Both the position numbers and the translations under genes were made by a program. A model generated the notes under the pieces. It did no database searches. It worked only from the letters and a program-made list of their open reading frames with translations, and was not told the DNA's origin. From a virus: 32,004 bases of DNA. Location of the stretch: the IMG/VR virus record IMGVR_UViG_3300042922_000073, positions 1-32,004 of that record. One strand, 5' to 3'. Positions 3,711-32,004 of the stretch are shown here, piece after piece; position 1 is the first letter of the stretch, and every line of letters starts with the position of its first letter.

Positions 3711-5653
3711 TGACTCAAATTACAAGCTATTTTGCCTCTTTAGGATTTGACATCGACCAAAGAAGTGTTCGTAAGGTTGATACAGCCCTTAAGAACATGG
3801 AGAAGAGACTTAGAGCCTTTGGTAAAAACTTCAATAAAAAGATTGGTATTAGTGTCGACATATCATCCTTTAGGATTGATCAAAAGAAGCTGCGTACCGC
3901 TTTGGGCAATTCTCTAGACCAAGCTAGTAAAGGCGTTGCTTTTGAAGTTTCAAGATTTGTTGTAAATGATCGTAATCTTTTAGCAGCTCTTCTTAGGGCA
4001 GCTAGGCGTCTTCCTCCTTTACCTCCGGGACCTACTCCTCCTAACCCTCCTAGACCACCTCGCCCCGGTCCAAACCCACCTCCTCCGGGTCCGGGTGGAC
4101 GTAGATCAGGGTCTTCAGGAGGTTATGGATATCTTGGTGGTGGTCTTGGTAGATTGTACGGTCCAGCTTTGGCGTTAGGCTTGGGTGGATACGGCTTGTC
4201 AAACCTTAACCAGAGAAACCAACAAGTTGTATCAGCACAGCTTCAAACGTCTGCCGTTACTCAGCAAGCCGGAGGATCTGCTCAACAAGGGCAACAATCT
4301 TTTGAGTGGTTGAGACAACAAGGTAATCGTGTTGGTTTTAACTACCTAGACGCCGCATCAGACTACAACAAGCTTACATCTGGTTTGACAGGTGCAGGCA
4401 TGAGTATTAAACAATCTCAGAATGTCTTTAAAGGCTTTTCTGAGTTGTCTCGCGTAAACAAACTTGATCGAGTACAACAGCAACGTGTTTATCGTGCTTT
4501 GAGCCAGATTGCTGGCAAGAATAAGCTTCAGTCTGAGGAACTTACCGGACAGCTTGCTGAAAGCCTACCGGGTGCTGTAAGTATCTTTGCAAGAGCGTAT
4601 CAGAATCAATTGGCAGCCCAAGGCAAGGGCGGTGGTAAAGAGGGGCAGGAAGCTATTACAGAACTTCTTGCGGCCATGAAGAAAGGTCAAGTTAAGGGCG
4701 ATATCCTCACATATGCGGGAGATATTGCTTCTCAGCAAGCTGCTCCCGGTTTAGCTGCGGCATCTACCGCATCACAAGCAGAACAAGCTCGTGCTCAGAA
4801 CTCGCTTAATGATTTGGCTGTACTAGCTTCGAATGCCGGTGTAGAATCAGGTTTTGCAAGGCTATTTAGGGCACTTAACGAGGGTCTAAAAGAGTCTGGG
4901 CCTATGGTTGAGTCATTGGCAAGGGGTTTCGATAATGTATCTAAATACGTGTCTTTTGCCGTTCTTTCTGCCCAATCTCTACAGAGATTCTTTGCCGGTA
5001 AGGATAGTTACTTAGGAGACAAGTTTTTCCCTAGTCAAGAAGATAGGGAGCTTGCCTTTGGTTTTCTGAATTCCTATAAGTCTCTCATGTCGGAGATTGT
5101 TGAGCTTGGTAGAAATGCCCTAGACGGTTGGCAGAAACTTGGTGCTGCTATGGGGTCTGGTCCATTAGCTAAGATCAAAGAACAGATTGATACTATCGCT
5201 AATGGTATCAATACGGCTAACAAGCTTGCAAGTGGTGACTTCTCAGGTGCAGCAGATTCAGCAGCGGGCTTTGGTAAAAGATTTGCAAATGCCGTAACAG
5301 CACCGGGTCGTTTGGGTATTAACACTCTGACTCCCTTTACTGTAGAAGCTCCTTTTGCGAATACAACCTCTAGCTTTGATATGCAGAACCAAGCTAAAAC
5401 TGACCAAGATCTAGCATTTGCAAACCGAAGAAAGGATAATTTTAACGGCCCTCTTGGTATTTTTCCTATGGAGAAGCCGGGAATGCCATCTCTTCCAAGT
5501 GCTCCTGTTGGCGTTATGGCACCTAAGGCAGATGTTAAACTTGATATCAATGTCAAGATTGATGCTGCAAATCCAGAAGACTTCAAGAATAAATTTGAAG
5601 CTAGTCTAAGTGATGTTGTTCGTCAAACCCTCGATAAATATTCTGAAAAATAA
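3710..5653 (+). CDS. Tail tape measure protein
   Basis: A 647-residue protein that sets tail length and is packed in the tube lumen. The N terminus (SYFASLGFDIDQRSVRKVDTA) and basic coiled segment are typical of tape measure starts. Residues about 104-130 form a Pro/Gly-rich linker. This is followed by Gly-rich and Gln-rich stretches and a domain containing LQSEELTGQLAESLPGAVSI near residues 270-295, a hallmark of the tape-measure N-terminal domain family. The C terminus has V-K-L-D-I-N-V-K-I-D and a helical end. At about 0.15 nm per residue it predicts a tail of roughly 100 nm. It starts on the last base of the frameshifted chaperone stop codon. Confidence 0.88.
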   Translation: MTQITSYFASLGFDIDQRSVRKVDTALKNMEKRLRAFGKNFNKKIGISVDISSFRIDQKKLRTALGNSLDQASKGVAFEVSRFVVNDRNLLAALLRAARRLPPLPPGPTPPNPPRPPRPGPNPPPPGPGGRRSGSSGGYGYLGGGLGRLYGPALALGLGGYGLSNLNQRNQQVVSAQLQTSAVTQQAGGSAQQGQQSFEWLRQQGNRVGFNYLDAASDYNKLTSGLTGAGMSIKQSQNVFKGFSELSRVNKLDRVQQQRVYRALSQIAGKNKLQSEELTGQLAESLPGAVSIFARAYQNQLAAQGKGGGKEGQEAITELLAAMKKGQVKGDILTYAGDIASQQAAPGLAAASTASQAEQARAQNSLNDLAVLASNAGVESGFARLFRALNEGLKESGPMVESLARGFDNVSKYVSFAVLSAQSLQRFFAGKDSYLGDKFFPSQEDRELAFGFLNSYKSLMSEIVELGRNALDGWQKLGAAMGSGPLAKIKEQIDTIANGINTANKLASGDFSGAADSAAGFGKRFANAVTAPGRLGINTLTPFTVEAPFANTTSSFDMQNQAKTDQDLAFANRRKDNFNGPLGIFPMEKPGMPSLPSAPVGVMAPKADVKLDINVKIDAANPEDFKNKFEASLSDVVRQTLDKYSEK

Positions 5654-5670
5654 CTCACAAGGAGTTTAGT

Positions 5671-6453
5671 ATGTCGTTTGGACTCCGCTGGGGTGAAGAT
5701 AATGAAGAGGGTGGTGGTTTTATCTGGTTTGATGCAATCACGGCAAATGTTGAATCTTATAGAGGTCAAGTTACAAGACACCCTATTGCCAACGGTGGTT
5801 CGGTGTCTGACCACTTTATCCGTGAGAACCCTACGATTACATTGTCTGTAGTTATTACAGGATTTGATATTTCACAAGGCAGCTACTTAATTCAGGATTT
5901 GGTGGGGAACTCGCCCTACAATGTTAACGAAGCTCCTAATGCTGTACAAGTTAACTCGACAGATCAAAGTGTACTGACCAAGTTCATTCCAGACAGTATT
6001 GGACAGTTCTTAGCTGACACTTCTCCTGAAGTGATTATGGATACTCAAAGACTTCAGGTTCTTGACACTGTAAGAGAGTACATGATAAACCTGATGTCTG
6101 GTTTTATCTACAGTGATGCTAAACAAAAGTTTGTGCCGAATATTCAAACGGTTCGCCTTTTTGAATACAATAAGACACTACTTAAGAAAATCATAAACAA
6201 TCTTGTTATCACTAACATGGTGTTTAAAGAAGATGCCAACAGTGGTGAAGGGTTATATTGTGATTTGACATTTGAGCAAGTTACTTTTGCATCGCTTAAG
6301 AAGACTATTGTTCCTAAAGATATCACAAATTCTCTTAAGAAGAAAGCAGCACCAAAGGTCTCTAAAGGTAAACAGCCTGCTGAGGTAAATGATGTCACTG
6401 AAGACAAAGGGCCAGAGGCGGATAAACAACGAGATATCGCGGCGGAGCTATAA
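5671..6453 (+). CDS. Dit-like distal tail / baseplate hub-connector protein
   Basis: A 260-residue protein with a good SD (AAGGAGTTTAGT) before ATG 5671. The N-terminal half reads as a beta-sandwich with HPIANGGSVSDHFIRENPTI, matching the Dit-like N-terminal signature of contractile-tail phages (conserved H-P, S-D-H and N/D-P-T-I). The second half is helical (TQRLQVLDTVREYMINLM), followed by V-I-T-N-M-V-F and an F-E-Q-V-T-F strand. The C terminus is a long charged, probably disordered Lys/Glu tail. It sits directly after the tape measure, where the tail tube is joined to the baseplate. Confidence 0.68.
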   Translation: MSFGLRWGEDNEEGGGFIWFDAITANVESYRGQVTRHPIANGGSVSDHFIRENPTITLSVVITGFDISQGSYLIQDLVGNSPYNVNEAPNAVQVNSTDQSVLTKFIPDSIGQFLADTSPEVIMDTQRLQVLDTVREYMINLMSGFIYSDAKQKFVPNIQTVRLFEYNKTLLKKIINNLVITNMVFKEDANSGEGLYCDLTFEQVTFASLKKTIVPKDITNSLKKKAAPKVSKGKQPAEVNDVTEDKGPEADKQRDIAAEL

Positions 6454-24857: not shown

Positions 24858-24886
24858 ATTATGAGGCATCCTTGCCGATGTGTCAA
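24858..24886 (-). promoter_or_regulatory. Sigma-70 type promoter (TTGACA-17-CATAAT)
   Basis: Minus strand: TTGACA (24881-24886), 17 nt spacer, CATAAT (24858-24863), start expected near 24851. The -35 box contains the TGA stop codon of the upstream HNH gene. It would drive the DUF3310, HAD, MazG-like, ThyX and RNR genes. Confidence 0.78.
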
Positions 24887-25356
24887 GCTGTTTGTTTAGA
24901 ATGCCTACACAGTGCTCCTAGTTGTGAATTCTTCCAATGTGGAAGCCATCGCATATTAGCTAGGTTATATCCTAAAGTGGAATCTTTTCGATCTACAGAT
25001 GGTGCAAGTCTGTTTTCATAGTTTGAATTTTCATATTCTACAAAAAGTTCATTAAATGTTGGATCATTTATAGACCAACTATAAAACTCTTCTTTGCTTA
25101 GAATCTCCAAACCTTCGTACAGATGAGCGTTCTTAGATTGCACACCGGTAACTCTTGAAAGCATATTTCTGTAAGCCCTCATAAGATAACCATTTTTAGT
25201 CTTCTCATAGAGCTTTGTACTCAAATCTCCAGAGCGTTTTCTATTCTCCCTCTGTTTAATATTTCTGCACGACCTACAAACTCTACCATGTTGTTTGGGA
25301 AATTTGCTTCTGTCTTGTTCAATACCGCAACAAATACATACCTTACTCTGCTCCAA
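24883..25356 (-). CDS. HNH homing-type endonuclease
   Basis: A 157-residue protein with an N-terminal zinc ribbon (C-I-C-C-G...C-R-S-C, residues 7-31), a basic linker, and a C-terminal HNH-like core: L-A-P-S-V-D-R-K-D-S-T-L-G-Y-N-L-A-N-M-R-W-L-P, then W-K-N-S-Q. This layout matches free-standing HNH homing endonucleases of phages. The start overlaps the end of the metallophosphoesterase gene by 14 bases. Its stop falls inside the -35 box of the next promoter, so it is tightly inserted in the operon. Confidence 0.78.
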   Translation of the reverse strand: MEQSKVCICCGIEQDRSKFPKQHGRVCRSCRNIKQRENRKRSGDLSTKLYEKTKNGYLMRAYRNMLSRVTGVQSKNAHLYEGLEILSKEEFYSWSINDPTFNELFVEYENSNYENRLAPSVDRKDSTLGYNLANMRWLPHWKNSQLGALCRHSKQTA

Positions 25357-26954: not shown

Positions 26955-27063
26955 TATCTTTCTCCTTAAACACAACCACAAGTTCTGCTGTAAGTCCATC
27001 CAAGAAATATTGGTCAATTTCCATATTGTCAGGGATGATGTAGTTATCAATCCAGTATTTCAT
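26947..27063 (-). CDS. Micro-protein, 38 aa
   Basis: 38 codons from ATG 27063 (inside the end of the HNH gene) to TAG 26947, overlapping the next gene by eight bases. Sequence pattern: K-Y-W-I-D-N-Y-I-I-P-D-N, then F-L-D-G-L-T-A-E-L-V-V-V-F. It bridges the gap between the neighbouring genes and carries the SD of the next gene within its 3' end. Confidence 0.5.
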   Translation of the reverse strand: MKYWIDNYIIPDNMEIDQYFLDGLTAELVVVFKEKDSE

Positions 27064-27673
27064 CACCTCGGGTAGTGGTACTTTTAGGATTCTCATTTGT
27101 TTTCTCCTTTATCACTGCTTCTCTTACAGCATCTCTGCGTGCTTTAGGATTCTTTGCACAAGTTATGCCACGTTGTTTAAGCCAGTTGTCAATCTGTGAG
27201 ACTTTCATTTTACAAACCTTGATTACAGAACGTTCAATGACAGCTTCTTCAAAGGTAATACCCAGCTTCTCGCTCAACGTCTTACTTTGGTGATCATCCT
27301 CACACAAGATTTGAAGGTCATCAAATTTAACCATCAGAATCTTATGGAAATAATTCTCAAAGTCCTCGACCTTTGTGAAGCTGTGATTGCCTAGACGATG
27401 GTCTATTTGAACATCTGTCAGTTTGAATAGTTTACCACAAATCTCACACTCTACCAACCACTTTGTACGTGTACTGTCATCCATGTCAGGAATTGTTTTA
27501 CTGTATAGGTAGGCAAGCTTCACATCTGACTTCATCCAAGCTTGCCTAATGGCTGAACGTACAACAGATACAACATGCTTTTCTTGGGGTGAGCCATCCT
27601 CGTTGAGTTTCTTCATGAACTCTTTAAGCTTATCTTCACGCTTCTTGATGTCTGCTGCTGATGGGATTGTCAT
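27047..27673 (-). CDS. HNH nuclease-like protein
   Basis: A 208-residue protein. The N-terminal 80 residues are helical and basic. The core has C-E-I-C-G near residue 77, then V-Q-I-D-H-R (HNH first His), D-D-L-Q-I-L-C-E-D-D-H-Q-S-K-T (second Cys, Asn-equivalent region and final His), i.e. a Cys-bound HNH fold. It is followed by a basic helical tail with I-D-N-W-L-K-Q-R-G. Located next to the exonuclease gene, it may be a resident nuclease for host DNA breakdown or recombination rather than a homing enzyme. Confidence 0.72.
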   Translation of the reverse strand: MTIPSAADIKKREDKLKEFMKKLNEDGSPQEKHVVSVVRSAIRQAWMKSDVKLAYLYSKTIPDMDDSTRTKWLVECEICGKLFKLTDVQIDHRLGNHSFTKVEDFENYFHKILMVKFDDLQILCEDDHQSKTLSEKLGITFEEAVIERSVIKVCKMKVSQIDNWLKQRGITCAKNPKARRDAVREAVIKEKTNENPKSTTTRGDEILD

Positions 27674-31447: not shown

Positions 31448-31711
31448 TCAATGGCATCCAGCCCAATTTTTGTGCACCATATAGCCTGCTGTCAACTCTA
31501 CGTTTAGTTTGTAATACTCTCCAGCTTCTTTTACTGCCTGTGCAGCAAGCTCCCCTGCACGAGAATAGGCAATATAGAAGCCACCCTTTACATTTGGTTT
31601 AATATCCGACCAAATTTTATCAGATGAATCTTTAAATGCTTGTGCTTCTTCCTCAGTTGCAAACATCTTGAACTTCACCAACTCTTTCTTTACTTCCAAT
31701 TGTGCCTCATC
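31448..31711 (-). CDS. PolA-family DNA polymerase, 3' exon (C terminus)
   Basis: Exon 2 codes for 87 residues: D-E-A-Q-L-E-V (rest of motif C H-D-E), then a helical stretch, A-Y-S-R-A-G-E-L-A-A-Q-A-V-K-E-A-G-E-Y-Y-K-L and the final G-Y-M-V-H-K-N-W-A-G-C-H. The polymerase ending N-W-A-x-C-H after a beta strand is typical of phage A-family polymerases such as T7 gp5. The Asp of motif C at the exon start is a catalytic metal ligand. An alternative GTG/ATG at 31717-31712 in this frame lies in the intron and lacks an SD. Protein enzyme: replicative polymerase. Confidence 0.8.
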   Translation of the reverse strand, partial: DEAQLEVKKELVKFKMFATEEEAQAFKDSSDKIWSDIKPNVKGGFYIAYSRAGELAAQAVKEAGEYYKLNVELTAGYMVHKNWAGCH

Positions 31712-31950
31712 CATCACGTTATTGGGTTCGCTAATCCCACTACGCTTTCACGTAGAATCAGACTATATCACTAACTCTTTCGAGTTACCTGCCGCTTCGA
31801 ATGCGCTTGCATCCTACTCCCTTACGGGATAGTCGTTACACCTTCCCATTTCTGGGCTTGGCTCGGGATTGGCATAGGCATAAACCCTTAGCTTTCCCCG
31901 AATTCAACAGGTTATTCAATGCACTTCACAATGCAAGGCCACAATTATTT
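31712..31950 (-). other. Group I self-splicing intron (IA-type), 239 nt, ORF-less
   Basis: All core helices can be drawn on the minus strand: P1 CCAU/GUGG with the splice-site U31951-G31942 wobble; P2 31934-31930/31925-31921; P3 31912-31908/31791-31787; P4 31902-31897/31867-31862; P6a 31856-31853/31848-31845; P7 31834-31829/31766-31761; P7.1 CCC/GGG around GUAA; P7.2 31814-31809/31804-31799; P8 31786-31782/31777-31773 with GAAA loop; P9 31755-31751/31744-31740; P9.1 31739-31736/31726-31723. It ends in G31712. The internal guide also pairs with the 3' exon (P10, GAU). P7.1/P7.2 indicate subgroup IA. Confidence 0.93.
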
Positions 31951-32004
31951 ATGGTAGGCAATCATTTGTTGGCAGAAAGGTTTGTTCTTCCAATCGTCCT
32001 TAAA
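31951..32004 (-). CDS. PolA-family DNA polymerase, 5' exon (partial)
   Basis: The last 18 codons of exon 1, cut by the window edge: K-N-K-P-F-C-Q-Q-M-I-A-Y-H. They lead to the His of motif C; the next codons in the unspliced frame are K and a TAA stop, so the protein can only be completed by splicing to 31711. The spliced product reads A-Y-H|D-E-A-Q-L-E-V. Palm and fingers motifs A and B should lie beyond 32004. Confidence 0.8.

Follow-up and report, generated by a model that had tools for sequence, protein, structure and literature searches.

The window analyzed here, a stretch of 32,004 nucleotides of virus DNA, comes from a contractile-tailed phage whose T7-type family A DNA polymerase gene is almost certainly interrupted, at the His/Asp codon junction of motif C, by a small self-splicing group I intron of the IA2 type; the intron belongs to a family that was recently mobile. 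The evidence comes from the RNA structure and the insertion site, from empty alleles and same-site introns in relatives, and from an intron history that is incongruent with that of the polymerase.

Polymerase gene and reading frame

The contig is an environmental assembly that stops 54 nt into exon 1, at 32004. Read on the minus strand from there, the polymerase frame encodes FKDDWKNKPFCQQMIAYH, closes exon 1 with ...ATT GCC TAC CAT (last base 31951) and then meets AAA TAA, confirming the in-frame stop two codons into the insert (31947-31945) noted in an earlier, sequence-only reading of this DNA. The intron, AAATAATTGTGG...AACGTGATG (31950-31712, 239 nt), has G as its final base and boundaries that are exact to the base; exon 2 opens with GAT GAG GCA CAA from 31711. 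Removal of 31712-31950 had been proposed to restore motif C, and it does: the result is a single open frame, FKDDWKNKPFCQQMIAYH/DEAQLEV...NWAGCH, with its stop at 31448 and the other frames closed, which rebuilds IAYH/DEAQ, the motif C of a T7-type family A polymerase (Table 1).

The spliced polymerase end alone (105 aa) gave no Pfam match. The longer, intron-free relative L002 matches Pfam DNA_pol_A and T7 DNA polymerase (E 1e-19), and in the latter alignment YHDEAQ of L002 falls on T7 VHDEIQ; the insertion therefore separates the His of motif C from the catalytic Asp. Other genes of the window encode a Gp2.5-like SSB, a 5'-3' exonuclease, ThyX and NrdA/B, and its tape measure, DUF3383 and baseplate J genes mark it as DNA of a contractile-tailed phage. 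A false ORF of 89 aa at 31448-31717 (minus strand) starts at GTG-ATG in the 3' end of the intron and continues into exon 2; gene callers could list it as a separate gene.

Table 1. Coordinates of the polymerase exons, intron elements and endonuclease genes near the polymerase stop in relatives; positions are those of the window unless a relative is named.
Feature	Position	Strand	Basis or remark
Exon 1 3' end, family A DNA polymerase gene, FKDDWKNKPFCQQMIAYH	31951..32004	-	homologous to intron-free L002, L003, L006
Group I intron (239 nt) with IA2 subgroup features; ends in G, lacks an ORF	31712..31950	-	RF00028 84 bits; same-site introns in nine relatives; covariation
Polymerase exon 2, DEAQLEV...NWAGCH, stop	31448..31711	-	homology to intron-free relatives
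In-frame TAA, at which translation of unspliced mRNA would stop short of Asp-Glu	31945..31947	-	reading frame
P1: exon CCAU (31954-31951) with guide GUGG (31942-31939), U.G at 5' splice site	31939..31954	-	invariant in 10/10
P10 guide AUU, pairs with exon 2 GAU (31711-31709)	31943..31945	-	kept in 9 or 10/10; one compensatory change
P2 hairpin	31920..31935	-	six pairs, compensatory changes in all
P3 5' arm; 3' arm 31794-31788	31905..31911	-	four covarying pairs
P4 (31902-31897 / 31867-31862) with P5 inside (31892-31872)	31862..31902	-	three P4 pairs covary
P6 and P6a	31840..31862	-	alignment of same-site introns
P7 5' arm GACUA (3' arm UAGUC 31765-31761), guanosine-binding helix	31830..31834	-	pairs in 10/10; two pairs covary
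P7.1 (31829-31818) and P7.2 (31814-31799), GUA linker	31799..31829	-	GUA invariant in ten
P8	31772..31787	-	5/6 pairs covary
P9 (31755-31740), then hairpin (31739-31723)	31723..31755	-	covarying pairs
GIY-YIG gene, free-standing, just behind polymerase stop	L004:5317-6051		intron carrier
HNH gene, free-standing, just behind polymerase stop	L009 about 5380-5760		intron carrier
HNH match just behind polymerase stop	L002 about 5421-5825		empty site
HNH matches just behind polymerase stop	L044, L066, L068		empty sites

Intron structure

The proposal that a group I intron lacking an ORF separates His from Asp in motif C was borne out by the covariance model as well as by same-site introns and read-through relatives. 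RF00028 is the sole Rfam match in the whole window; it lies at 31739-31961 on the minus strand, scores 84 bits (E 3e-20 over the window) against a curated cut-off of 50 bits and covers the full model (1-253). The RNA fold of the intron stretch has a z of -2.8 relative to shuffles.

Ten introns from the one junction were aligned for covariation, after excision of the HNH insert from P6a in two of them; helices were drawn on the window sequence and then scored in the other rows, and pair counts were taken on a global-pair alignment. A standard pair is kept in 613 of 671 cells (91%) and pairs changed on both sides occur in P2, P3, P4, P6, P6a, P7, P7.1, P7.2, P8 and P9, while weak pairs (outer P5 and the last P3 pair) fail in several rows. 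The elements claimed from sequence alone, P1 to P9, P7.1, P7.2, P10 and the terminal G, were thus all recovered with support from covariation across the ten introns, and the terminal G at the 3' splice site is present in every one of them. Joining of P7.1 and P7.2 by GUA is a sign used for subgroup IA2 (PMC3428280), and the window intron has this linker (TCCC-GTAA-GGGA-GTA-GGATGC...). BLAST also matched the intron core to terminase, tape measure and thymidylate synthase genes, which we read as similarity between cores at other sites.

These features predict the following course of splicing. The polymerase pre-mRNA would fold so that exon CCAU pairs with guide GUGG in P1, an external guanosine would cleave 3' of the U that ends the His codon, and exon 1, now free, would attack behind the terminal G while P10 (AUU/GAU) keeps exon 2 in place. 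Ligation would then rejoin CAT-GAT-GAG, that is His-Asp-Glu. Translation of unspliced mRNA would stop two codons into the intron and yield a polymerase without the catalytic Asp; replication of this phage would probably depend on splicing.

Same-site introns and empty sites in relatives

Relatives were drawn from two viral-contig scans and from phage records, and the contig relatives used are the best 80 of 104, ranked by match, so that interrupted genes may be under-counted. In this set, 77 of 87 distinct polymerases are uninterrupted, in agreement with the expected intron-less relatives, and ten, the window included, are interrupted, all at exactly the same base of the H/D junction. The nine other introns span 226-839 nt: 232 nt in L004 and L005, 236 in L088, 226 in L074, 243 in L010, 266 in L009, 282 in Shewanella phage KASIA, 792 in SPA01 and 839 in KLEP7. 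The intron had been described as near minimal at 239 nt; it is small, yet not exceptional beside the same-site introns of 226, 232 and 236 nt. Only SPA01 and KLEP7 (two of the nine) have an HNH gene in P6a, which in the window is a short GAAA-capped stem; the HNH gene of the SPA01 intron is phrog_59-like.

A reading frame could also be interrupted by an assembly join, or by a disruptive insert that inactivates or shortens the polymerase, and the contig end is close by. We consider such an origin extremely improbable: the same junction and structure recur in nine other records, phage isolates among them, the helices show compensatory changes, and the exons on both sides are intact and conserved.

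In KASIA, splicing of the polymerase mRNA has been reported: RT-PCR products of two polymerase segments, amplified from cDNA and sequenced, lacked the introns (PMC8541194). Its CDS is annotated in three pieces and, given the two polymerase primer pairs, the motif C intron was presumably one of the two tested. In SPA01 (OP875100.2), the intron-split polymerase gene at 54907-58413 is annotated as three hypothetical proteins, and two more weak group I matches lie at 32142-32983 and 71159-71411. The contig of L006, whose polymerase site is empty, has group I matches elsewhere (G005:C1:85456-85667 and 83987-84232, minus strand).

Movement between phages

Between the window and L088, identity is 91% in the intron and only 75% in exon 2, whereas L004 is nearer to the window in exon 2 (84%) and further from it in the intron (88%). 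Constraint on the ribozyme may account for part of this high intron identity. On the polymerase tree, built from the best 80 of 104 contig relatives and the phage records, the ten carriers need nine changes compared with a mean of 9.6 for shuffled labels, which means that they are about equally scattered. L088 is nested within an intron-free group, and SPA01 has as its neighbours Pakpunavirus polymerases that are nearly identical but lack the intron; the position of KASIA on the tree is not reliable.

L088 shares with the window the final 15 nt of exon 1, ending GCC-TAC-CAT; in its intron-free sisters the Ala and His codons are different, the latter being CAC. This is the kind of match that co-conversion during homing would leave. 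TACCAT precedes the intron in all ten carriers. The CAT codon is found in 10/10 carriers versus 12/68 distinct empty sites (Fisher p 5e-7, in a test that ignores shared ancestry), and since its T makes the U.G pair, the bias may be due to target choice, a condition for splicing or co-conversion. Judged from these sequence patterns, the intron family is mobile and has moved recently between divergent polymerases of different phages at one site. L002 (5001-5315) is intron-free, nested with the carriers L004 and L005 and keeps GCC-TAC-CAT; its empty site possibly reflects intron loss.

Endonuclease genes

No endonuclease ORF was found within 31712-31950, and the window has no endonuclease gene directly behind the polymerase. 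The sequence-only reading had left two options, mobility supplied in trans or mobility lost. It was right about the missing internal gene, but loss is unlikely for the intron family because the family has moved between divergent polymerases. Homing would most likely be driven by an endonuclease made elsewhere, either free-standing or encoded by an HNH-bearing copy of the same intron.

One tentative possibility is that an HNH gene in P6a, like those of SPA01 and KLEP7, formerly made the intron mobile, and that what remains is a deletion derivative, vertically inherited and merely tolerated. HNH-bearing introns do exist at this site, the window P6a is reduced to a short capped stem, and neither the intron nor the position behind the polymerase holds an endonuclease gene. 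This fits poorly with the incongruent pair of the window and L088, 91% identical and both ORF-less; movement therefore went on in the absence of an internal gene, unless a donor with an HNH gene had lost it on two occasions.

Free-standing endonuclease genes lie about 10-220 nt from the polymerase stop in several relatives, both intron-bearing and intron-free (Table 1), which suggests homing in trans. It is quite possible, if short of probable, that the intron spreads with the help of such enzymes (GIY-YIG in L004; HNH in L009, L002 and L044), which would cleave motif C where it is still uninterrupted and take the intron with them. Movement of the ORF-less intron is what collaborative homing would produce, and there is precedent for this process in T3/T7-like phages and a cyanophage (PMC10448857, PMC3984707). 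The window polymerase has no such gene behind it, however, and most carriers showed none with the probes used. The relatives' enzymes are candidates, and we hypothesize that they cut motif C. T3 gene 5.3 and PhiI I-TslI reportedly cut polymerase genes at the same position. Two other genes of the window, both on the minus strand, were weighed as possible helpers in trans: 27047-27673 encodes an HNH protein (phrog_1985) with a counterpart of 62% identity in L005, and 24883-25356 an Endo VII-like protein (phrog_1035). They lie 4-7 kb off and resemble other families, and we claim no link between them and the intron.

A broader and rather unlikely proposal, which we offer as speculation, is that the ORF-less intron family at this one polymerase junction travels among environmental myophages via interchangeable free-standing endonucleases (GIY-YIG and HNH) behind the polymerase. 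If true, several unrelated enzymes would serve one intron.

Comparison with known introns

The window site presumably corresponds to position 881 of E. coli Pol I, where His881 precedes Asp882 of motif C. In this numbering, introns in phage polymerase genes have been placed at 674 (SPO1, SP82, Bastille and Pf-WMP3), 676 (phiL7) and 881 (PhiI and W31) (PMC3428280). SPO1-type phages had been named as the precedent: they too have group I introns in family A polymerase genes, but at site 674 instead of the present motif C site, and with an HNH gene inside. The real precedent is the intron of the T7-like phages PhiI and W31 at 881, an IA2 intron with the HNH endonuclease I-TslI in P6a (PMC3428280). 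The agreement with the His/Asp junction is by published site number alone and the likeness in subgroup features by published description; the HNH gene is in the same place as in the related SPA01 and KLEP7 introns, whereas the window intron has no endonuclease gene and is in a myovirus-type polymerase.

Among the same-site introns, that of Shewanella phage vB_SspS_KASIA shares the insertion point (YH/DE), the ORF-less form, the terminal G and the core, yet it is longer in the P9 region, and both polymerase and intron have diverged (67% intron identity). Pseudomonas phage SPA01 and Pseudaeromonas phage KLEP7 are identical to the window in site and core and differ in the length of the intron and its HNH gene. 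Cyanophage psbA with F-CphI, a case of collaborative homing, is alike in that ORF-less introns occur together with free-standing endonuclease genes next to the gene concerned, as in some relatives of the window, though not in the window itself.

Both the kind of intron and its site were thus already known from the published introns at 881. What is new is the occurrence of the ORF-less form in this group of phages, together with a clear record of intron movement. The phage polymerase introns that target motif C gain an ORF-less member with good support. Gene callers break such polymerases into "hypothetical" pieces, as in SPA01, and replication genes are hidden in this way. Because a single site is found here in empty, ORF-less and HNH-bearing versions, this set of alleles lends itself to the study of how endonucleases are acquired and lost by introns.
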